A stretch of DNA of 64,000 bases from Tetrahymena thermophila SB210. Taxonomy: Eukaryota; Ciliophora; Oligohymenophorea; Hymenostomatida; Tetrahymenidae. The notes beneath the pieces are model-generated. The model did not search any database. It was not told the origin of the DNA and saw nothing but the letters and a program-made list of their open reading frames with translations. Below are positions 47,258 through 64,000 of the stretch, piece after piece (positions within the stretch are counted from its first letter, which is position 1; each line of letters opens with the position of its first letter). The translations under genes and the position numbers were made by a program. The stretch covers positions 62,001 through 126,000 of the forward strand of contig NW_002476155.1 of the NCBI RefSeq assembly GCF_000189635.1, given 5' to 3'.

Positions 47258-50200
47258 TGATGTAATAAAAAATAAAATAATTTAAAAATCTAGAAGATGT
47301 AATATTTTATATTTGTTATTTAATGTATTTATTTAATTTTATCAAATCAAAGTTTCGTAACTGCGATCCTTCATCACACACAAATATTGAATTTTTAAAT
47401 TGGTAAAATACATTTTTATATTATAATATTTCCTAACAAAAATTATTTAATATTTTTATTACTTATAATGAATGCTACTCTAATTTATTCACTTTTTGCT
47501 CAAAGATTGTTATTTAAATTTTTATCACAATATTTAATTAAGAATTTAATTTATAAAAAAATAGTTTTTAAATATATTTTAATTTTGTATTTATTTTATT
47601 AAAATATAAAAAGTTTCAACGGAAAAAACTATGCCTAAGAGATTTGCAAATTCAGTTCTGTTTTAGAAAGTTGTAGCAATCTGACTACTATATCTCTAAA
47701 TCTAGGGTAATTTTTTTAATGGTTTATTAATTTTTTCAAAAAAAAGTACAATCTAATTTTATTATGTTTCTAATTTTTTATAATATACTCTGTGCAGTTC
47801 TTATATTTTCTACATTTTAAAATACAAATTTTCATATTAAATTTCGTATTATTAACTATATTATTTTAATTCAATTAAATATTTGAATAAAAGTAAATGA
47901 AATTTTTCCAACAATATAAAGATTCAGAGATCTCTATGGTGAAACTTTCTCAAAATTATGTTCTGGATTATCTAAATGTACTAATATCTCAAATTTTAAA
48001 GTTGAATTATGGTAAAAATAATTTATTTTTTTATAATATTAAATAATTATTTTAATGTAAAATGTCAGCGAAAAAAAATAGACTAATTTTTAAATTTACT
48101 TAGATAATTATTACCTATGTGTTTGAATTCATTCATTTATTTATTTATTTATGTATTTTTATTTACTGTTTTAATTTTTTAAAATTAAAATTATTTTTGA
48201 ATTTTCAATTTAAACTTCATAATTAAGTATTTCATTTTAAAATTTTAATATTTAAATTTTTTTTAAATAAAAAGTAAGAGTTAAATTAAAGATGAAGGTG
48301 CATAATAATTAAGTTTCCTAATTGAAAATTGGAAAAATCTTTCAAATTTGACACTTAATCTAAAGTATAACAGTTAAATTAATTTTATAAATATTTTATA
48401 TTACTTTTTTACTTGAGATGGATAGTAAAAAAACAACAAATTAAATAAATTACTAATTATTTAATTAACCTATGCATTCACTCACTCACTCTATTAATAT
48501 CAATCTAACTTATTTAAAATATATTTTATTTTATCAAATTTTTAACTTTAAATATAAATATATAGATATTTTATTAATTATCTTAATTATTACCAAATTT
48601 TTACATTTGAATTAACCAATTTTCCAAAAATTTATAAAAAGTTCTAATGATATAAGCGATAAGGGAATATCAGAGTTAGCTAATGCATTAGGAAATTGTG
48701 TTAATCTCTCAAATTTGTCCTTCGATATTTCGTGAGCATTCTTAATTTGTTTATTTAATAATCTTTATAATATATTAAACAATTAAAGAATAAAAAAATT
48801 CCTTCAATCTATCATTTTTTTCTCATTAATTATTGGTAAATTCAGCAAAATTATTTACTTTTGCTATTATCTTTTATTTTAAATTTAAGTTTTAACTTTT
48901 ACTAACATTTTTAACTAAACAAATACTTATAAACATATAAAAAGGGGTAATAATAGTATAATAGTCAACTCTACATTTAACCTTAGTTCTAATTTAACAA
49001 AGTGCAAAAAACTATCAAATTTGAATCTCTAACTCTAGTAATTTATTTATTTATTAATATTTAATTAATCTTCTTTAATATTTAATTTTTGCATAATGGC
49101 TTTCTAAACTATTTATTTCTTATAACAATTATTTAATTAATCATATTTAATTTAAAACATAAATTTACAGAAATATTTTTTAAAATTATTATTCTCTCTC
49201 TGAAATAAATTAGCTCGTCATTTATTATTTTTTTAATATAAAAAGCAACACCGTACTTGTCGACTATAATATATCAGAGTTAGTTTCTGATTTAGCAAAG
49301 TGTAAAAATCTTTCAGCTTTGGAATTGAATATAGGGTAATAAAATTTTATGTCTTTTTATTAATTTTTAAAGTTGAAATAAGATAACAAAATAAAGAAAG
49401 TTTATATTTTGTTTAATTTTTATTGGTTTTATGCTTATTTGATGAACTTGATTTTAAATTTATTAATTAGTTTTTTAGATTTAGTATTACATTTTTAAGT
49501 AATAATTTAATTTATCATATCTAATAATTCATAAAAACTCAAAAATATAAACAGTTTTAATGGTTTTGATTCGTTAGTTTTAGAAAATTTAGGTTCTGAG
49601 TTAGCACATTTTACTCATCTCTCAAAGCTTTCACTAAATATCCGGTAAAATAATTTCTTTCCTTTTATTAATTTTAGATAAAAAGAAAAGTAACACTAAA
49701 ATTTTTTAATTTCTTCTAAATTGATTTTAAGTTAAATCTAAATCTATTAATTCTCTTAAAATATAAAAAGTAATAATGAAATTAGTGATTAAGTTGTCTA
49801 TAATATATGCTCCGGTTTAAAATATTGTACTAACCTTTCAATTTTAGATCTCAACCTTGGGTAAAAATAATTTATTAGATATTATTTATTGTTTTATTAT
49901 ATATTCAGAGGAATATTAAAGGTTGTATTTTATTTAATTACTTGCTTATTAATGCTTTTTTCTTTATTATATACATACTACATACACCTTATTTATCATT
50001 TTAATTGCATTTTTTCTTCATTTAAATTGTTTTTTAATTTTAGAAATATTTTATTTATTTATTTATTTCCAATATCATTTTTATCTAAACTTACTCATAT
50101 TATAAAAATGTAAAGAGGAGATTAATTGAATGAATTAGCTGCATCTCACATATCATCTACTTTAGTTCAATTACCGAATCTCTCAAACTTGGCTATTATG

Positions 50201-51657
50201 CTTTCGTAAAAAAATTTTATTTATTTATTTACTTAATATAGATTAGCAAATGTTTTAAAATACTGAAAAATATTGTTAGATTATTATTTTTTTTTTAATT
50301 TAATTCCTATTTTTACTCCCCAAGCATTTTATAATAAGATTCTTAAAATTTAAACTAATTTATTTATTTTTTCAACTTTAAACTTTAATTTTAAATTTCA
50401 ATTAATGTATTACCTCGATATTTTCAACAAATTTATTTATTCTAAATAACAAATTATCTTGTAAATAATAAAAAGAGGTCAAGAAATTAAAGCCGAGGGT
50501 GCATCATACATAGGTTCTGCTTTGTCAAAATGCAATAATCTCTCAGCTTTATCACTTTAACTAAGGTAAAATTTTTTTTTATTAGTATTTTTTGTGAATT
50601 TCAAGGTTAAGATAAAATATAAAAATAAATCTTGATTTAAATTATTATTTTAAAATTATTTATTTTTAAAATTCAAATTTTCTCAATTTTTTTTTTAGAT
50701 CTAATAATATCGGTACTACTGGTTTTAAAGACTTAACTTCTGGTTTATTTAATTGCTCTAATCTCTCAAGTTTAACGCTCGATCTCTAGTAAAAATAGTT
50801 GACTTGATAATATTGTTTAATTGATTTAAAAGTTTGAATTAGCTAAAAAAAAGAAAGTAAAAGTTGTGTCAAAATTTTTACATGGTTTCAAAATGATTAT
50901 TTTTATAACTCTTTTATTCATTTGTTAATTATTTATTTTTTAAAATTTAAATTTATATTTCATACTAAAATTTCTATATAAGATTTTTCAAACAACCAAA
51001 AAAAAATTTTCTTAAAATATTCAAAGTAATAATAGTATTGATGAAGAGAGTATATTAGATTTAGGTTAAGCTATAGTAAAATGTACTAAAATCTTTAATT
51101 TATATCTCTGTCTGATGTAAAATATTTTGTTTGATTGATAAATATTTTAGTCAATATTTTTTAATTATATTTCTTGTTTAATTTCTTTAAATTTTAATTA
51201 ATTATTTATTTAGTTAGTTTTATTTTATGCATTTTATTTACTATTTTTATTTAATATTTTAATTTTGAAATAATAAATTTTTCATGCTCTTTTAAATATT
51301 TTTTTATAATAATTTTATAATATTAATTAAAAATTAAGATATGATAATTATTTTAGTGAAGAAGGTTATTCAGATTTCATTTCTGCAATAGTAAGTCACT
51401 AAAGTATCTAAACGTTATAACTTGATGATAAGTAAAAATAGTTTATTTTCTTTTATTAACTTTTTAATTATTTGGAGAATGAAAAAGAATTGAATTAATT
51501 TTTAATTTTAAAATTGGTTTATTACTTTATTAAAAATTTTTTTATTTAAACTTTCATATAAATAAAAATTATTAAAAGCTTCAGAATATTCTCAAACTAA
51601 ATTTTTAAAATGAAGAAACTGGTCAGAATGATTTTTAATTAAGAGGATTATTATTGA
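47258..51657 (+). CDS. LRR gene D3, 13 LRR exons
   Basis: Third tandem paralogue. The start exon 47261-47299 (MQQKIKQFKNLED; alternative ATG at 47258) lies only 91 bp after the D2 stop. A cap exon with KFRNCDPSSHTNIEF follows. LRR exons a to m are all present once, near 47616, 47927, 48283, 48652, 48946, 49253, 49555, 49772, 50113, 50474, 50703, 51031 and 51336. The terminal exon 51579-51657 reads FRIFSNQIFKMKKLVRMIF and ends in TGA. It has 13 LRRs against 14 in D1 and 10 in D2. It is the most diverged of the three in introns and in some exons (for example exon d reads LANALGNC). The symmetric phase is kept in all exons I checked. Confidence 0.8.
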
Positions 51658-53372: not shown

Positions 53373-55093
53373 TTTTCAATTTAAGAGTTTTTTTTTTTAT
53401 TTTTTTGATTACTTTTTAATTTAATTTTTATAATTTGTTTGCAGAAATCTATTAAGATTCAAGATATAAACCAAATAAGCATAAAATAAAATCAAATTAG
53501 AATATATAAATTTTGATTACTAAAACAAAATTAAATTAATTTAGAATATTAATATTTTTGTTAATAATATCACTTTTTTTAAAAAATTTTTTAAAGAATA
53601 ATGCTGTTAGAATTTTAAATAAATCCTTAAAATACTAATTAATTAATAAATATAATTTATATTATTATATCATTTTTTTATTAATTTCAATATATTCAAT
53701 TCAAATATTGAAATAAAAAATAATTTTTTCTTAATAAATTATAAAAGTATAAAAATATTACTTTTAAAAATGTGAAATATTTAGAATATTTAATTAATAT
53801 ATTGCTCAATCAAAATCCTTATAAAAAGTAATTCTAATTTATTTTGAACAATTTAAGTATTAAAATTTATAATTATTTATATTTTATATCTAAACATTCT
53901 AAATTTAGATTAAATTAAATAAGAATATTTTAATTTTTCAATTTACTATTTTATTTTATTGTTTAATAAAGCTTATAATGTATAAATCAATCATATTATT
54001 TACTAAAAAATAAAGAAGAGTTAAATTAAATAAATCAGCTAACTATAAAAAAGAATTGAATTTATTTTTAACCTTATCTTCTTTTTAAATGCTGTCTTTG
54101 TTTTTGAATAAGACCAGTAAAAAAAATTTATTTAAGAATCCTTTTATTAGATGATAACTTATAATATTTGTTAAGTTGATTATTTAATTTATTAATTGAT
54201 TTAAATTTTTATTATAGAATGTAGCTTTAATTATTTTAAATATCTATTAGAATAATAATTTATTAAAAATAATTTACATTTTTTTAATAAATCTTGAATA
54301 AATCTGATGAAAAAGCAAATTTGTGCATAATAATTAAATTAAAAAAATGCTTTTATTCTACTAATAATCAATAATTAGATCTATCATATTTGTTAAATTT
54401 AAAATGTATTTTACAAGATTTTTGTCTAATTATTTTATTAAAATTAATAAAAAAAAAATTATTAGAGGAACAAAAATATTGAAAATTAAAATAATTTTTA
54501 TCTTTAGTTATACTTTAATTTCTCTTTACTATTATACTGAAAATATTATGATGAAATTTCTTTATTTATACTATTTTATATCCTCAACACAGGAGATTCT
54601 TATTACTATTAATATATTACCATGATTTTATAATTCTGGCAAATTTTAGTTGTGTCTACTACAATTAAAATTTTCTTTATATAACATATTCTTTTACTAA
54701 AATAAGTTAGAGAGATAAAAGTGATTTATCTCAATTTTTAAAAAATATGAAGAATATTTATAAATTTTTTATAAATGGCAGTTATTTTTATATAGTAATA
54801 TAAAAGTATTTAAAAAGATTTATGATTTAAACTACCTTAAAAAAATGTTTAAAAGTATGTTAGTCAATTTTTATTTTGTTGAGAAATAAAAGTTTCCACA
54901 TTAGTTGAGTTTCCTCTATTACAAAAAATTCTTTTATAACTTAATATTAAAAGATTATATTAATTCAAAGTTGAGTTAAAAATTCTAATTTCTTTTTTTT
55001 TTAAATTTATTAGTTAAATACTACCAATTTTGACTCTTAATCTTATAAATAAATTAAAAGAAAAAAAATAATTTGTCAAACACAACAAATAAA
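53373..55093. other. Long intergenic region, no supported gene
   Basis: About 1.7 kb of very AT-rich sequence between divergent genes (CBM20 on minus, the 378-residue protein on plus). An ORF at 54404-54625 (MYFTRFLSNYF...) has biased hydrophobic/Ile-rich content and no homologue I know; I treat it as chance. No repeats or RNA genes seen. Confidence 0.45.
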
Positions 55094-56230
55094 ATGGACA
55101 CAGCTCCTAATTAAGATTAAAATCTATCTTCTCATCAAATTAAATAAAAACTTTTAGATCTATTTGATTTAAATGAAAATATTGAATAATCAAGATCTGA
55201 GATCAATTAATGGAACGAACTTCTTTTGATAGAGCAAAACATATCTTTGAGAAACTAGATAATAGCTAATATTTAATCTTAGCAATCATCTTTCATGTAA
55301 GAATCTCTACAAAACGAGAGAAACGAAATCTAAAAACAAACCCAGTATTTCAAATAAGCTAAACTGAATATAATCAAAAAAACAGAAAAATTGCTAGATG
55401 ATCTTATTGCTAATCTTTATTCAAAAAAAGCTAGAATATACTAAGCAATTTGTTTTTATGATGAAATTCCTATTTCCTTTGAAGAAGATGCTAATCTAAT
55501 TAAAGTGTACAATAGCTAAGGTGTGTGTGAATATAGAGTCCAAGGATGTAAAGACATATTTTCCATCTAAAGGATTCCTATAAATCCTCAAAAAAAATAT
55601 AAACTAGAAATAGAAATTAAAAATTGCTCAAATTAGACATCATTTATTGGATATAAGTCCTATAACTAAAATTATCCAATTTATGACCGTTAAAGCATAG
55701 TCTTTTAAAGAACTGAAGTTTTGCTAATAGGATTAGATATGGAGAATAAGGCATTTATAGTTAATAATATAGATAATAATTTATCCAGATGGAATAATCC
55801 CAATGCAGAATACTATGAAAAATACATTGGTTTTTATAAGTCAGGTAATATTAACGAGTTCATCAAAGCCGAAGAAGTAATCATTTATAATGAGGACTTA
55901 AAAACAGCCTACAGAGAAATAGATGTTTTAAATAATAAAATTTATTTGAATGACTGGGCTTGGACTTATTACATGAATACTCTTCACTCATAAACCTATC
56001 TAAATTAAACAATCTTAATGAATCATGGTGGTGGGGGTACTTATAACTATTGTGAAGAGATTAAAACACATCACTCTGACTGGACTAAGAAATTCTATGA
56101 TCTTAGTACTTTCAGAAAATTTACAGATACTATTGAAATCTGCATTTTAGCAAACTACTAAGGCATTCAAAGCAAAGTTTTTGAATTTAGAAATGTTAAT
56201 TTTTTTGTTTGCGAAGATGACAATGAATGA
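55094..56230 (+). CDS. Intronless unknown protein, coiled coil plus beta-rich domain
   Basis: Continuous frame from ATG (MDTAPNQDQNLSSHQIKQ) to TGA, 378 residues, with many TAA and TAG codons read as Gln. Residues about 1-120 are charged and heptad-like (LLDLFDLNENIEQS, IIKKTEKLLDDLI), suggesting a coiled coil. Residues about 160-375 look like a beta-sandwich: RIPINPQKKYKLEIEIKN, YKSGNINEFIKAEEV, NHGGGGTYNYCEEIKTHHS, and TDTIEICILANYQG near the end. The ...P.NP...Y.L.... start and closing strands recall carbohydrate-binding or galactose-binding-like folds seen in ciliate surface proteins, but I cannot assign a family. No signal peptide or membrane segment. It is a single-exon gene among intron-rich neighbours. 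Confidence 0.88.
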
Positions 56231-57180
56231 AAATTATTTTTCCATTTAAATTCATATGATAAAAATTTAAGTGCTATTTTTTTAAAATCATCAAAATTTA
56301 AGTCAAGCAGTTACAAATATAAAAATAATATTTGTATAATTAATTTTTTATATTTTATCATTTCTTATTGAATAAATTGAATGAACTTTTTTTCTTACAT
56401 TTTTGTTAAGTTGATATTTTCCATAACATATTGATTTATTTAATAAAATTAAGGAGTAAAAGTATTATTCATGTAATGAATAAAATTATTGTGAAGAAAT
56501 TGAATTAGAAAGATAAAAAAAATATATATATATTTTGGATAATATTTTAATTATATCATTATTAAAATACCAAAAATATTATGTAGTAATGACAAATTTT
56601 AACTATTTTATAAAAAAAATTACCTCATTTAAATTACTAATTTATTAAAAAATTGTTTTTTAATAATTAATGAAAAATTTCATCGTTAGTTAAGGTTATT
56701 AAAAAAAGAACTAAATATTTCTCAAATAAAAAATTTGAAAAATTTACTAACCTAATTAATTTTTAAAAGTTCAATCCCAATTATTTACGTTACCTATTAG
56801 ATTTCCTCCAACATATTATATTATGAAATTGCTTATTATAAAATAATTTAGTATTTTTTTGTAAGTTTAAATATAGTATTATTTATTAAATAATAAAAAT
56901 ATATTGTTTAATATATCTATTATATATTTTATATGCATTTAAGTAGTAAATTAATTTAGAATATTTATAGTATCAAATTTAAATTGTTTAAAATGTTTTT
57001 AATTGTTAAATTTTTGATCTAATTAAAATATTAGAATCTTAACTAAGAAATATATAAAACAAAATAATATATATTTTTTAATAACTAAATAGTATTTTAT
57101 CTACAAAAATTAATAATTATAAACATTTTTATTTTTTTTACAAAATAATTAATTTTATCTTTTCAGAAATAATAACAAAT
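56231..57180. other. Intergenic between convergent genes
   Basis: About 950 bp, AT-rich, between the 3' ends of the 378-residue protein (plus) and the dynein-like gene (minus). No gene or repeat found. Confidence 0.5.
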
Positions 57181-60100
57181 TCATTGATTTAGCTATTTAA
57201 TTTCTTTGTACTTTTGAAAATAATCCACAACTAATTTCAAAAAATCATCTGCAAAGAGCCTTGTTTCATTTTCTACAGATGAATTTTCTATGTAGTTGTA
57301 AATATTTTTTTTTATATCTTCAATTTAATATGATTTCTCTAATTTTTTTTACATACTCTACTTGTATATCTAGTTGTCCAAATTCAAACGTTAAGAGAAA
57401 TCAATTAAATTGAAGTTATAATTATTATATTTATTTTATAAAAAGAAGTCTTCATTTTTAGTTTAGAAATACAATTCAAATTATTTATTTATTTTGAGTT
57501 ATTTTTTATCAAAGTTGATACAATTAAATTCATCATTTTCAGAGTCATAAATTTTTTTAATTAGATTATAATATTTCTTTTCAAAATTTGTATCAACATT
57601 TTTAACTAAAATTTTTACTTTTTAGCTAGAATATTCCTGTAAGTGCTCCTACAATATTTTTTAATCTTAATGTTAACACTCTAAATCAATTTTCTATAAT
57701 TTTAATAAAAATAAATATAATAATTCCATTTACTTTAAGCATATTAAAATTAATAAAATATTTGCTTATTACCAAAATTTATTTTAGCTGGTCTAAAATA
57801 TTCAAGGGATCATAAGAGAAAGTCCATAAGCATACTGAATTTGTTATGATAAAATAGTTTTCAATAAAAAAAGTATCAAAATTAAAGTTTTGCAAAAATA
57901 GGTTGTCAATTTCAATCTACTTTTCTTCAAATTAAAACTTTAACAAATTATGTAAATCTTCATCTTCCAGCTAGCTAAACTCATTCACAGAAGACCTAAG
58001 ATGGAGTTTAAAATCTTTTCTATCTGAATTATTAAATCTACCAAAGTAATTTAATATAATAGCTGAATAGCAACAATCTCTTAATAGGTTTTTTTACATT
58101 TATTCCAGTTCAATTTTTTCTATGTCTTTTAAAATTTTTATAAAAAATATCATTTTTTTTCTTCAGACTCATTCATTTAAGATTATTTTGTTTGCAATGT
58201 AAAATTTTGTAAAATATTTTATTTAAAATGAATTTAAAAAAAGTTATTAATTATTTTCAGAAATTCTTATTAATTTTACTTAAAAATGCCAAATAAAATC
58301 TAAAATTTTTAAAAAAGATTTACCTAAAATATTAAAGAACTGCATAGCTTCATTTATAAATGTGTTCAAAATTTATTCTTTTTAGCTTAAAACATCAAAC
58401 TTTTATTGAATTTCTTTTTTTCTATTTATCAAGTCATTTTGAGTGTTTTTTAGGATGCTTAAAGAACCTTATTCAATTTCAAGTTTGCTTGCAATTTCTT
58501 AGCATTCCAAGTTTAGAATATCTTACTCATTAAGTGCGTTCTATTTTCAAAATAATTTTTGTAAAAATCAAAAATGAAATATGTAAGGAAATTACATCAT
58601 ATTCATTCTTTAATGGTTCAAGCTCAATTTCTAGTTTACGATAATCGATGAAAGAAGTCATCCATTAAAAAATGACTTTTAATCCTTTTTATTAGTTTTC
58701 AATGACTTTTGAATTTATAAATTTTTAATTATCTTCAAAAAGCGCTTCGACTTTATTGATTTGGTCTTTTCCTACAGTTTGCTTATCTAAATGCACTAAA
58801 TCTTCTAGGAATTTCGGATTATTTAGGATCTATTTTTAAATTAGTTGCTTGCTTGCTTGAAAAAATTAAAATAATTTATCTAACCTTAACAGATGCTGCC
58901 CACCAATCAATTTCTATTTAACCATTTTATTGGTTTTTTCTTTTTTCTAGTGGGTTTGGATAAATTAAAAAACAAAGACCTTAGAGAATTAATTTCATAG
59001 TATTACTAGGAAGCTTCATCTATTTAAGAATATATAATTCGTTTTTATCAGTATTTATAACTTACTTTTCTATGTTTTCAAGATTTTATTTTGACTTTTA
59101 AAAATTAAAAAAATATAAAACAATCAATCAATCAAGGATTATTATTTTTTAATAAATTTACATGTAAAATTTTGATGTTTATTTCTTCTTAAATTTAGTT
59201 TGAAACTTTTATTTTTTCTTGTAAGACTTAATTTTTTTAATCATATTCTTGTTTGATCTAATCAATTAAAGTTTGAGATTCATCAATTTTGTTTGATATT
59301 AAATCAATGCTTGCCTACTCTTTTTCAATAGAAGGAATCATATCTTATAATCTCCTCTAGATTATTTTTTAACTCTTTATAATTACTTTAATTTTTTAAC
59401 ATATTTCTGACATTTTATCGAGTTTTTTCTGCAAATAAATACTTCTTTACAAAAAAATGCTATTCAATATCTATAAATAGCTCTAGAAAATTTTGTAGTT
59501 TGAAATAATGTCTTTCCTGTTTTTAAATAATCAGCAATTAAAATACTTGAAATTTATATAACTTTAAACTAAAGAATTAATTCAAAGTTATTTTTTACTT
59601 TAAATTTTTAAATGAAATATTTTTCCACTTGAATCATTAAAATAAATTAAATATAAATTTTTGGTTTTAATGAAACATTTCATAGTTATATATATTAGAA
59701 ATTTAAAAACCAAAGTAGAAAAATAAATAAAATAAAAAATTACATTGCAGAAATCTAAATCATACTAGTAAATATAGAGTTGAGCAAGGGATAAAGTTAA
59801 GAACTTTAAGAAACTATTAAATTATCAAAACTCTCAATATATTGTTGAGTATACTCGAGTAACTAGTTTACAGTCATTTATGGTAAGAACAGTTATTGGA
59901 ATTGATCTTTAAAAAATGGATAAATTTCTTCATTTTATTATTTTTATTTAATATCTGTATGCTAAAAGCTAATACTGTATTAAATATTCTAAACCATTTT
60001 ATAATACATTAGCTCTTACATTTCAAAATCAGAAAATTTTTTTAACTTTTCATTAGCCTTCTTCATTTATTATGATATTGATCTTATTTCTAAGTTAAAT

Positions 60101-63100
60101 ATTTTAAGATTAGAATGATAAATTTTATAAAAATTTACTTACCTTCTGATGAAAAGAAATTTTCGAAAGAGTGACAAGAAATAATTTGGCTAATTGCATC
60201 ATAAATTTGCTTAGAGGTGTAAGGCGTATCATCGATATGTACTAAGTACTATAAATTTAATATAAATTTTAAAAAATATTTTCAAACAAAAAACAGTAAA
60301 TGATGATTACTCTCTCATCTGTAATTGCAGTTTATCTTAAATATTTTTTTAATTTGTTTGTAATTTAAATCAAATCAGATATATGGTCAGTTTTGATGTA
60401 CTTGAATTATATTTTGTTGATGAAGCAAATCAAACTTAAGATATAAATAATAATTAACTAAAAATTAAATATTGAAATTAGTTACCTCAGAATCTTTTTT
60501 CGGTTGCTAAAAGGTTAAGAATAAATAAGGATATTTTATTTAGAATTGATTAAAATGTGATTTATCCTGATTAATGAATAGATGAATTGAGAAGTTATTA
60601 TTTTTTATATTTTTAAAGTATTTTGTTGATTATAATTTTCTATTTAATCTTTGATAGTTTAAAAAAAAGTTTACTTACGAAAGTAGTAAGGGAAAATACT
60701 TTGTTAATTTTAAACTATGTCAGTTGTCCATATTATTTACTTCTCAAATTCGTTTATTTAAGTTTCTCCTTACTTTCCACTTTACTAAATAAAAGGTTCA
60801 AAATTTTATTCTTCGCTATCTATGCTTTAAATAGAATTTTTAAAGATGAAGCCTTCAAGGAATTTATCACTTGAAAATTCATTTTATTGTTCAGATTTGA
60901 CATTTTCTTCCTCAATACCGAGATTTAATGTTTATCTATTTAATTACTTAGAACTATTTTAATTATTTTCTTGATTAACGATAGCATTCTACTTTTATGT
61001 GTTAATTTAAGATTATGCCATTTAAATCTCAGTAAAAAACTCTTTTAAATTATATGAAAATTACGAACCAGCAATTTATGATATCTAATTAAATAAATTA
61101 TTTATTTTTTCTGTAAATTCAGATTGTTTTTACAATAATTGACTGTATTCTATCCAATTTAAATAAATAGTTATTTAAGCTAAAGATTTTTTATCAATAA
61201 TATAGCTTTATTGCAGCAAACCCATAATACTTTAGAATATATGACATAATTACTATTAATTGTAAAGTTTAGGAAATAACTCACAGCATTTTTTGTGATA
61301 TTGTAAAGTGGCTCTAACAATTTTTAACGAATAGCTATTGATCATAGTACTTATACCCTAAATTGTTCTTTCAGTTATTCCATGCAAGTTTTTTTGCTGA
61401 TGCTCTATTTACACTAAATATTGTTGGTAGCAATCTAAGAGTTTATCTTTAATAGTTTTTAAATAAATTGTTTCTAAATTTTCTTCATTGAGCTGATCTA
61501 TTCCGTAGACGTGAAAAGATTTCGTTAAGCTACAATAAAATAATTAAATAAAAATTCATTAATAAATGTAATTTTTTTTTTTAAAATAAATAAATATTTT
61601 ATTCAAAAAAAGATTAAAATTAAAAAAAATAATAATAAAAATATATTTTTGTTTTTTTACCTTCTTTATATTTAATAAGGATGATTTGGATTAAATGATA
61701 AGAGAAAGTTTATATTTTTGACCTAGTTGATAAACTAAACGTTATAATTAATATCATTTGGAATTGTATAAAATTATTGCTTGTATTTAATTTATCTTAT
61801 TGTTTCCAAAATAGGAGCACTGGGACTTGGAGGATTATTATCACTCTATAAAGGTGAAAAATTAATATCATCTATAACAATAATTAATTGATCACACAGT
61901 TATGGAGGAACATAAGTTGAATTTTCTGTTAATTTTAAGTTTCCAGTTAAAAACTTCATAAAAACAGAATAATTTGTGACTGTGTTAATCCTATAAAATA
62001 TTCCTTATTATTTTAATTGGCATTCTTCTCCTGTTATTCTATCTAGTAATTTTTCTTGCTCTCCCTTCATCATAGGATAATCTAAAGTAAAAAATAATAA
62101 TAATTTAAAAAATGCAATCAATAAATATTCATAAATAATTAAAAAAATAAATATTACATGATAATGTATCGGCTTGATCCAAAATAGATCTGCGGTTAGC
62201 ACTCAGTTATGTATATTTAAGCATGGTCTCTTCCTTATGTTTTTTCATACTATTATTAAAGTCTAACTTTTTAGAAAGAACAAATTGCTTAAGATATGTT
62301 GTCCTACCATAGCAATTTTAAGAGCAGGCTATTAGTACATCTATTTTATTGCTAATTAAAAGATTTAACATAGATATTGTCTTAACCAGTTGAGGAGTTG
62401 GAATAATTATAGTATTGCCAAAAAATAACTTTTGAATATCAATATTAACTCCTTTACTTTATAACTTTACAGTGTTACTTTTATCTAAAATATCTTAACT
62501 AGCTGATTCAGAATAGGATTTCCATTCATATAAAGGGAAAACATCAATTTAACTGTCATCTTTTTTAGGTTTTTGTGAGTTGAAAATGAACTAAAATTTG
62601 CTTGATTCATTTTATTTGTTTTTTTATTTGACTAATTTGTAAAGAAATGTGTCTAAGTAAAAATCAAAGAGTGTTGCTTCTTATGGCAGAGTTATATTGT
62701 TGACTAATTTGTTGAATTAAACTACATCCTTGAGTAGAATGTCTTTTAAATATTAGTCGAAGAGCTTCCTGTGTTCAATCTAAATGAGTTATCCAACAGA
62801 TGAAACCAAGGAAAATACAAACATTTAAATGATCAAAATAGAACGATTTTTCATATTATTCTAAAATATTCTATGATTGTATATTTATTCATCTTACAAA
62901 GGTTTTAAAAATAGAGAGAAAACTCTAGTCAAACAAAAGTACATTTCTTTGTCAGATATTTAAAAGATAAGGATGCCTCTATTCTAAATTAAAAGGGCTT
63001 GCTCTTCATTTTATTTACTCTAATTCAAAGCACTCTACAAACTCTCTTCGATTTTAGAATTCCTAATGCTACTTTCTGAAACTGTATCAATTATTTTTTT

Positions 63101-64000
63101 AGAGTTGATGTAAAAGTTAGTATTCTGACTTTCACTAATATTATAATCTGAATAAACTTTCTATTTATTTTGAAAAAGAGGAGAAGTAATTGAGTTTTTT
63201 TTGTTGTTTGAAAACTAGTTTTCATTTGTTAAAAAAATGCTCTTTTTGGTAGTATTAAATTTAAAGTCATCGAATTTAGTTTTAAACTTTGAAGATATCT
63301 GTCTCATTTAATTTTCTTAAGAGGATTCTCCACTGTAACTACAAATCCATTTTACAAGTGGCTAAAATATTTAATTGAATAAAAAATCAATCAGCTCAAC
63401 ATCATAATTTTCAAAAAACTATGGAATTTAAGAGCTTTTAAAGTACGAATGCTCATACTAAAAACAGACATCCCAAGATTAATCAACATTAACAAGACCA
63501 TAGTTATTAATCATATCAACATCTATCCTTGAAAGATTTTCACAAGAAATGACAAGGAAAATATTATTTTTTATTAAGTTTACTTGTTGTTTACTTTCTT
63601 GAACAATTTTTTCAGGCGTTTTAAACATAGTGCACAACTACTAATCTAAAACAGCATCAATTAACACAATTCTTTTAATTACCTTTTTCTATCTTTTTTA
63701 TGAGTAATCCTTTTCACTATAAATCTAATTGCATTTTATAGTTTATTATTTTTGCATTTTTATCACTTTACTATTATAACTGCTATAAGAATTTATAGAA
63801 GCTTCTAAGTTATCTTCAATCTTTTAAGAGCTTAAAATTGAATCTACATTTGAATTTTCTAAACTTTCATTTTCTGAATCTGTTTTACTTTATGCACTTT
63901 GATCACTTTCTGAGCTTTCTGAAGGTGTTTAACTAACTGAAGATATATCCTATTCTTCTGATTAAGAACTATTACTACTAGAGCTTTAATTGCTTTACTC
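57181..64000 (-). CDS. Divergent dynein-heavy-chain-like protein, late AAA2 to AAA5 (5' part outside window)
   Basis: Minus strand, multi-exon. In protein order: a Ser/Gln/Glu-rich insert (63.8-64.0 kb); VLIDAVLDQQLCTMF and LVISCENLSRIDVD..NNYGLVNVD, equal to the end of AAA2; FVFSLVSSVGQL and IIIPTPQLVKTISML, entry to AAA3; a degenerate AAA3 Walker A, ACSQNCYGRTTYLKQF (about 62285-62335), where GxxxxGKT is expected; Walker B LIIVIDDINF (about 61860-61890); AAA4 YLVHIDDTPYTSKQIYDAI (60.2 kb); stalk coiled coil (about 59.2-59.5 kb); MKLPSNTMKLILQGLCFL and WWAASVK; stalk tip ILNNPKFLEDLVHLDKQTVG; second coiled coil (58.3-58.5 kb); AAA5 RDCCYSAIILNYFGRFNNSDR, and ILVKNVDTNFEKKYY. It stops at TGA 57181 with no AAA6 or C-terminal domain. 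Motor activity is doubtful. Frames stay open over long stretches, which argues for a real though divergent protein. Splice sites were mostly not resolved. Confidence 0.72.

Follow-up and report, generated by a model that had tools for sequence, protein, structure and literature searches.

A dynein heavy chain-like gene on the minus strand

The 64,000-nucleotide stretch of Tetrahymena thermophila DNA analyzed here (hereafter the window, positions 62001-126000 of contig C334) carries at its end, on the minus strand, the 3' part of a dynein heavy chain-like gene (57181..64000). Reading followed the ciliate code, in which TAA and TAG encode Gln and TGA is a stop, and genome-wide searches covered the 101-Mb assembly. 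The organism is confirmed by a second dynein gene of this assembly, from which a 356-residue piece of an exon is identical throughout to T. thermophila heavy chain 6zyw_A. The gene model extends about 13 kb beyond the window and predicts a protein of 5,334 amino acids encoded by 29 exons, the last 12 of which (57181-64422, the first of them crossing the window border) were curated. It was derived with a small gene finder, for which the window and canonical dynein loci served as training data, with the upstream DNA added (contig positions 116001-153000), and with a profile of four working T. thermophila heavy chains (C247, C221, C409 and C418, all partial references). Of two ab initio models, the first took the AAA4 P-loop for an intron and was overruled by spliced profile alignment, and the second split the N-terminus, lost conserved pieces of AAA4 and was not used for the final model. 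The final window model consists of the first-run exons with AAA4 mended through the spliced profile alignment, and the exons upstream of it also come from the first run; doubtful introns placed by this alignment in unalignable stretches were left unused. All 28 modelled introns have GT-AG ends, which the gene finder imposes, and the model start near contig position 139205 is uncertain, the second gene-finder run placing a start at 71833.

The linker (Pfam DHC_N2, 1.5e-17, profile positions 201-351 of 403) and AAA1 (AAA_6, 9e-10, profile positions 1-318 of 327), the latter outside the window, are followed by an exon at 62158..64000 that continues to 64422 and encodes an acidic, Ser-rich insert in AAA2 (63848..64000, the whole insert spanning 63848-64213) which does not align with the four reference dyneins, the end of AAA2, an AAA lid (Dynein_AAA_lid, 1.2e-8) and the start of AAA3. 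With 2,265 bases, 1,843 of them in the window, this exon agrees with the first-pass annotation of the stretch, which had described the frame as open over more than 1 kb at a time. AAA3 continues in the exon 61661..62081 (AAA_7, 7.2e-9) with a Walker B motif LIIVIDDIN (61861-61887) and a sensor-1-like NPNHP (61678-61704). The next exon, 60486..61529, was placed by profile alignment and leads from the AAA3 lid to the AAA4 P-loop region IYSQPFSNRKK (60494-60526), whose glycines are lost. The part of AAA4 between P-loop and Walker B lies in the exon 60311..60434 (AAA_8, 1e-7), flanked in the gene model by introns 60435-60485 and 60249-60310; its Walker B region YLVHIDDTPY (60219-60248) was aligned in the exon 60139..60248 and its remainder in the exon 59744..60082 (profile alignment and AAA_8). 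The stalk with its tip and AAA5 (AAA_9, 5.6e-9) complete the protein. All these family matches, those of AAA3, AAA4 and AAA5 being obtained with spliced minus-strand pieces, lie above the curated cut-offs; AAA2 is without a family match of its own and its position is set by alignment alone.

Searches against PDB sequences pointed the same way: the linker matches DNAH1, and the C-terminal 2,060 residues match DNAH12 (1.4e-16), DNAH1 (3e-16) and DNAH7 (6.3e-15). The spliced profile-to-DNA alignment scores 135 on the gene's own strand and 40 on the other one; four other window segments, each searched in both orientations, give 31-48, which excludes a chance resemblance. With the same profile, 23 canonical loci of about 4 kb each score 1324-3686, the top four being the profile's own members. 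Genome-wide family searches score the best candidates only and their counts are lower bounds; they returned at least 12 matches of the tail region DHC_N1 on six other loci and none on C334, a negative of little weight since 19 of the 25 canonical loci have none either. The landmark order proposed in the first-pass annotation (AAA2 end, AAA3, AAA4, stalk with tip, AAA5) is thus recovered through the AAA_7, lid, AAA_8 and AAA_9 matches, with AAA2 placed by alignment and the stalk by PDB matches. Judged from its sequence, the gene is a dynein heavy chain by descent, with linker, AAA1 to AAA5 in order and the stalk with its tip between AAA4 and AAA5.

Stalk, nucleotide sites and C-terminal end

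The stalk is composed of coiled coil 1 (59017..59500, exons 59162-59516 and 58885-59094), the microtubule-binding domain (58626..59016, exons 58885-59094 and 58596-58829) and coiled coil 2 (58070..58625, exons 58596-58829, 58324-58540 and 57773-58125). When the stalk with its tip was searched against the PDB, 23 sequences were returned at E≤0.01, the best being DNAH1 (2.7e-14, with 364 of 370 residues covered); among the matches are the solved tips 8i3j, 2rr7 and 6rza (DNAH7). Seventeen of the 23 are annotated as dynein heavy chains; the remaining six, 4,069-4,625 amino acids long, carry the names "AAA+ ATPase domain-containing" (four), "DHC_N2 domain-containing" (one) and "malate dehydrogenase 1B" (one), and by their length we take them to be heavy chains. 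For the stalk with its tip, as for the segment from AAA4 through the stalk to AAA5, the best PDB matches are the single-headed inner-arm dyneins DNAH1, DNAH3, DNAH7, DNAH12 and Chlamydomonas dynein c. A stalk profile scores 38.3 bits in hmmsearch, where none of 50 shuffled versions exceeds 3.6 and the reversed sequence gives -1.2; the probability in hhalign is 92%. With anchors set by eye, coiled coils 1 and 2 measure 139 and 97 residues, as compared to 140 and 96 in all four references, and the tip measures 112 residues (103-121 in the references). The loop between H2 and H3 (58900-58959) is within one residue of the length found in DNAH1 and lies at the position of the flap, an element described for many axonemal dyneins that in DNAH7 touches the neighbouring protofilament, according to the part of that study consulted (PMC6629372). 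The preservation of stalk and tip lengths argues for a constraint on the fold. That the locus instead encodes another AAA giant, such as midasin or RNF213, or a fortuitous combination of coiled coils is hardly credible: the AAA matches are weak one by one, but the linker, the dynein D4 and AAA5 families and the dynein stalk all stand in the right order, and the 23 stalk matches include no coiled-coil protein besides dynein-sized chains and dynein fragments.

The nucleotide sites are in a very different condition. The Walker A pattern [AG]x4GK[ST] has no match in the whole modelled protein, as compared to two or three in each of the four partial references. At AAA1, the alignment places HNRYKKDGKRS, with one inserted residue, opposite the P-loop GPAGTGKTE of working dyneins, and the Walker B motif GCFDEFNR reads LYLDGFEE, with loss of the catalytic Glu. 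The P-loop of AAA2 was read by eye as SGLKVNYKN and otherwise by the automatic alignment, with a Walker A motif in neither reading, and its sensor region (63482..63532, minus strand) is remodelled to SRIDVDMINNYGLVNVD, where the reference C247 has NATPATVSRAGVLFINE; the remodelling proposed in the first-pass annotation corresponds to SRIDVDMINNYG as compared to NATPATVSRAG. At AAA3, the P-loop CSQNCYGRTT (62297..62326, minus strand) aligns as SQNCYGRTT, with one inserted residue, to GSAGTGKT and carries Arg (codon 62303-62305) in place of the Walker A Lys, as had been read earlier in CYGRTT; this replacement is commonly disabling in P-loops. AAA3 retains the IDD of its Walker B. At AAA4, GVGGSGKQS has become YSQPFSNRKK and HIDD is kept. 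The degeneracy of the nucleotide sites noticed at first reading is therefore real and extends to AAA1, outside the window. Since AAA1 drives dynein mechanochemistry, as stated in the portion of PMC12338079 available to us, and this site is dead, motor activity of the protein is very unlikely.

The coding region ends with AAA5 and the C-terminus (57181..58125, minus strand, exons 57773-58125 and 57181-57693) at a TGA codon (57181-57183), so that the reported stop after AAA5 was correct. In the C-terminal piece of 2,060 residues, the alignment of AAA5 extends to about position 1,970 and leaves the last 90 or so residues unaligned. C-terminal helices were considered as an AAA5 buttress hairpin, but the last 100 residues score 20.5, below the average of 21.5 obtained with 100 shuffled sequences, and the idea was dropped. 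An AAA6 profile covering the end of AAA5 through the C-terminal domain, and hence starting inside AAA5, was built from eight canonical loci. Three leave-one-out positives reach 1814-2245 with it, and 12 controls, taken from six segments in both orientations, reach 26.0-32.5. At 28.4, 54001-57250 falls within the control range, and its opposite strand gives 33.0; 57000-64400, the stretch of the gene itself, gives 39.7, an alignment of 52 positions that we did not count as an AAA6. Among the candidates scored genome-wide, there were at least 35 matches to the AAA6 family PF03028, on 25 loci, and at least 72 to Dynein_C at E≤1, none of either on C334. Downstream of the stop, an AT-rich gap of 950 bases with 13% G+C (56231..57180) is followed by a convergent plus-strand open frame (55034-56230), and together they leave no room for an AAA6 and a C-terminal domain. 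Single-headed inner-arm dyneins are motors with a working AAA1, an AAA6 and a C-terminal domain; unlike them, this gene is without any P-loop, AAA6 or C-terminal domain. A protein that is still regulated by nucleotide, AAA3 or AAA4 binding it and tuning the stalk, appears improbable. The kept Walker B and NPNHP of AAA3, in spite of Arg for Lys, and the HIDD of AAA4 speak for it; against it stand that same Lys-to-Arg replacement, the glycines lost at AAA1 and AAA4 and the complete lack of the Walker A pattern, and without AAA6 the ring would not be able to close in the usual way.

Several neighbouring features were recorded. The convergent frame encodes 398 amino acids and has no Pfam match at E≤0.1. 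A minus-strand open frame at 53061-53375 matches the CBM_20 starch-binding family (3.3e-11, profile positions 2-49 of 97, the N-terminal half of the domain). Plus-strand frames at 49025-51657 show, by eye, recurring leucine-rich-repeat-like lines (e.g. LSALELNIGQQNF) with AT-rich interruptions, the frame 49025-50263 having no Pfam match. Upstream of the dynein-like gene, a predicted minus-strand gene at C334:144487-149892 carries, by eye, a Cys/His cluster that looks like a PHD finger and acidic stretches.

Dynein-like loci of the genome and the question of decay

Among the candidates scored, the 25 canonical loci of T. thermophila that have AAA6 matches are also those with strong AAA1 matches. 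Twenty-five heavy chain genes are also given in the part of a review that we consulted (PMC6103457), and the present gene seems to be left out of them. The canonical DYH loci share with this gene the order from linker to AAA5 and, unlike it, have an AAA6. Beyond them we found at least six other degenerate dynein-like loci (C273:22067-27401, C206:12822-16620, C214:424124-427791, C297:113763-115794, C114:1897573-1900343 and C290:107780-112347), where profile alignment gives 112-233 in the coding direction and 32-36 in the reverse one. All six lack Asp and Glu in the Walker B of AAA1, and most have a GGYWLYIKNLE-type sequence there; the AAA3 P-loop is lost in the four in which AAA3 was aligned (C273, C206, C214 and C114), where N-G-[VLI]-[ST]-[ST] is found instead; C206 retains an AAA1 Walker A, GPQATGKSS. 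The present gene is without these AAA1 and AAA3 motifs. Dynein_C matches were found downstream on the same strand of C114, C206, C214 and C273 (that of C214 passing the cut-off only with its neighbours and that of C273 remaining below it), and likely belong to the same degenerate genes. A PDB search with the predicted exons of the C114 stalk region found nothing similar to dynein; exon ends at this locus are inexact, a codon split across a predicted junction being read as a stop in its automatic alignment. The present gene is the reverse case, the stalk being kept and the C-terminus lost. A DHC_N2 match at C13:351950-352312 (2.3e-13) and a weak AAA_8 match at C13:182706-182855, seen as family matches, could indicate a further degenerate locus.

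The six degenerate loci form one group in an AAA1 tree (support 95), and in a longer alignment all of them but C297 again fall together (support 100). Both trees join the present gene to this group, with supports of 93 and 98, but its branch measures about 7 substitutions per site, which makes long-branch attraction likely. In AAA1 its identity to the six is 12-19%, about the same as to the canonical chains (mean 16%). Of three constrained trees tested with the longer alignment, two matched the fit of the best tree, and the third, with this gene inside most canonical chains, gave a p-AU of 0.041, with too few replicates.

The nearest idea described in the literature is human DNHD1, a long and very divergent heavy chain relative outside the motor classes. 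The portion of one article that we consulted terms DNHD1 a ghost or orphan dynein gene that is perhaps becoming a pseudogene (PMC8754002); in the part of another seen by us it encodes 4,753 amino acids, is required for normal sperm flagella and is mutated in patients with sperm-flagellum defects, the central pair missing in one patient in some of fewer than 10 usable sperm sections (PMC9916431). The gene studied here could be the ciliate orthologue of animal DNHD1, both belonging to one ancient non-motor dynein family that spans animals and ciliates. We regard this as unlikely: the two are very divergent heavy chain relatives outside the standard classes, and T. thermophila has this gene in addition to its 25 canonical loci, but no chain named DNHD1 is among the PDB matches, six further degenerate loci in T. 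thermophila are rival candidates and the very long branches defeat tree placement.

The first-pass annotation had left the choice between a non-motor dynein relative that kept its stalk and tip and a slowly dying paralogue, that is, a former dynein gene under relaxed selection and without function. Several traits of the gene would suit decay: all P-loops are eroded, the branch of about 7 substitutions per site recurs in both trees, AAA6 and the C-terminal domain are lost, and coding G+C is around 24-25% (0.22-0.28 by codon position in the window part), as compared to about 0.33 in canonical loci, which may reflect low expression or weaker constraint. On the other side, the gene contains stop-to-stop frames of 769, 501, 469 and 405 codons, and the longest would be open by chance in about 3 cases per million at the lower off-frame TGA rate. 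The spliced window model holds a single TGA, the terminal one, in 2,061 codons, as compared to 34 and 114 in the shifted frames (1.7% and 5.5% of 2,060) and to the roughly 46 that a Markov model predicts for the window part; the 1,713 upstream codons hold none in frame, as compared to 36 and 82. The lack of internal TGA codons and the GT-AG introns point the same way, though the gene finder imposes both. From linker to AAA2, the protein is on average about 16% identical to 23 of the 25 heavy chains of T. thermophila, so the divergence is old. A close duplicate was not found, a 336-amino acid AAA1-AAA2 piece matching itself alone in a genome search. Slow decay is thus most improbable, the frames having stayed long despite this low identity and the stalk having kept its lengths, and the non-motor alternative is well supported by the long frames and the nearly normal coiled coils.

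A putative ATP-independent microtubule tether

We conclude that this locus probably encodes a functional, non-motor, ATP-independent and microtubule-binding relative of the dynein heavy chains. At the sequence level, it combines a linker, AAA1, AAA3, AAA4 and AAA5 recognized through their families, AAA2 recognized through alignment, a stalk with its tip, and long frames, and in it no Walker A motif, AAA6 or C-terminal domain was found. The protein would fold as a linker followed by an incomplete AAA ring incapable of an ATP cycle. As such a ring would be both dead and one module short, the stalk would not be switched by nucleotide in the usual way. The tip would then grip the microtubule constitutively, or under another control such as phosphorylation of the acidic Ser-rich insert in AAA2, while the tail that precedes the linker, at most about 2,100 residues long, could hold a partner, the whole acting as a static tether, spacer or scaffold and not as a motor. 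As a first guess, the protein could be located on ciliary doublet microtubules, because its tip resembles those of single-headed inner-arm dyneins.

Several points weigh against this conclusion. Freedom of the tip from nucleotide control is deduced from the state of the ring, and purifying selection is argued from open frames and preserved lengths and not from the ratio of nonsynonymous to synonymous substitution rates (dN/dS). The counts of TGA codons in the model are partly circular, since the gene finder forbids them in frame; the long raw frames are not. The single AAA matches are weak, with hhalign probabilities of 63% for AAA2 with its lid, 22% for AAA3, 4% for AAA4 and 11% for AAA5, and the dynein assignment therefore rests on the order of the modules and on the spliced Pfam matches. 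The profile search of the spliced model proposed in the first-pass annotation returned the AAA families above their cut-offs, but the Pfam stalk family PF12777 misses the stalk even at E≤10 and gave no match on C334 in the genome search. Finally, the upstream exon ends differ between the two gene-finder runs, the second of which assigns about the first 1,600 residues to separate genes.

A literature search over titles and abstract openings returned no article recognized as treating this gene. More broadly, ciliates might keep a class of ATP-dead dynein heavy chains, in which the present gene would be a specialized constitutive microtubule tether made of a linker, a five-module ring and a stalk with an inner-arm-type tip, and lacking AAA6; if DNHD1 were of the same class, the "ghost" dynein would be an ancient and working non-motor family older than animals. 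We put this forward tentatively and with more doubt than confidence. Counting this one, the loci described above suggest a minimum of seven dynein-like genes in the T. thermophila genome in addition to the usual 25, and inventories based on AAA6 models or on score thresholds may miss such genes; the part of one inventory that we consulted is an example in which score thresholds drop extremely divergent sequences (PMC2239267). Dead motors that survive through their track-binding part would show which pieces of a dynein work without ATP. A well-preserved non-motor dynein in a ciliate amenable to knock-outs would make the function of such proteins, for which DNHD1 is the candidate human counterpart, directly testable.

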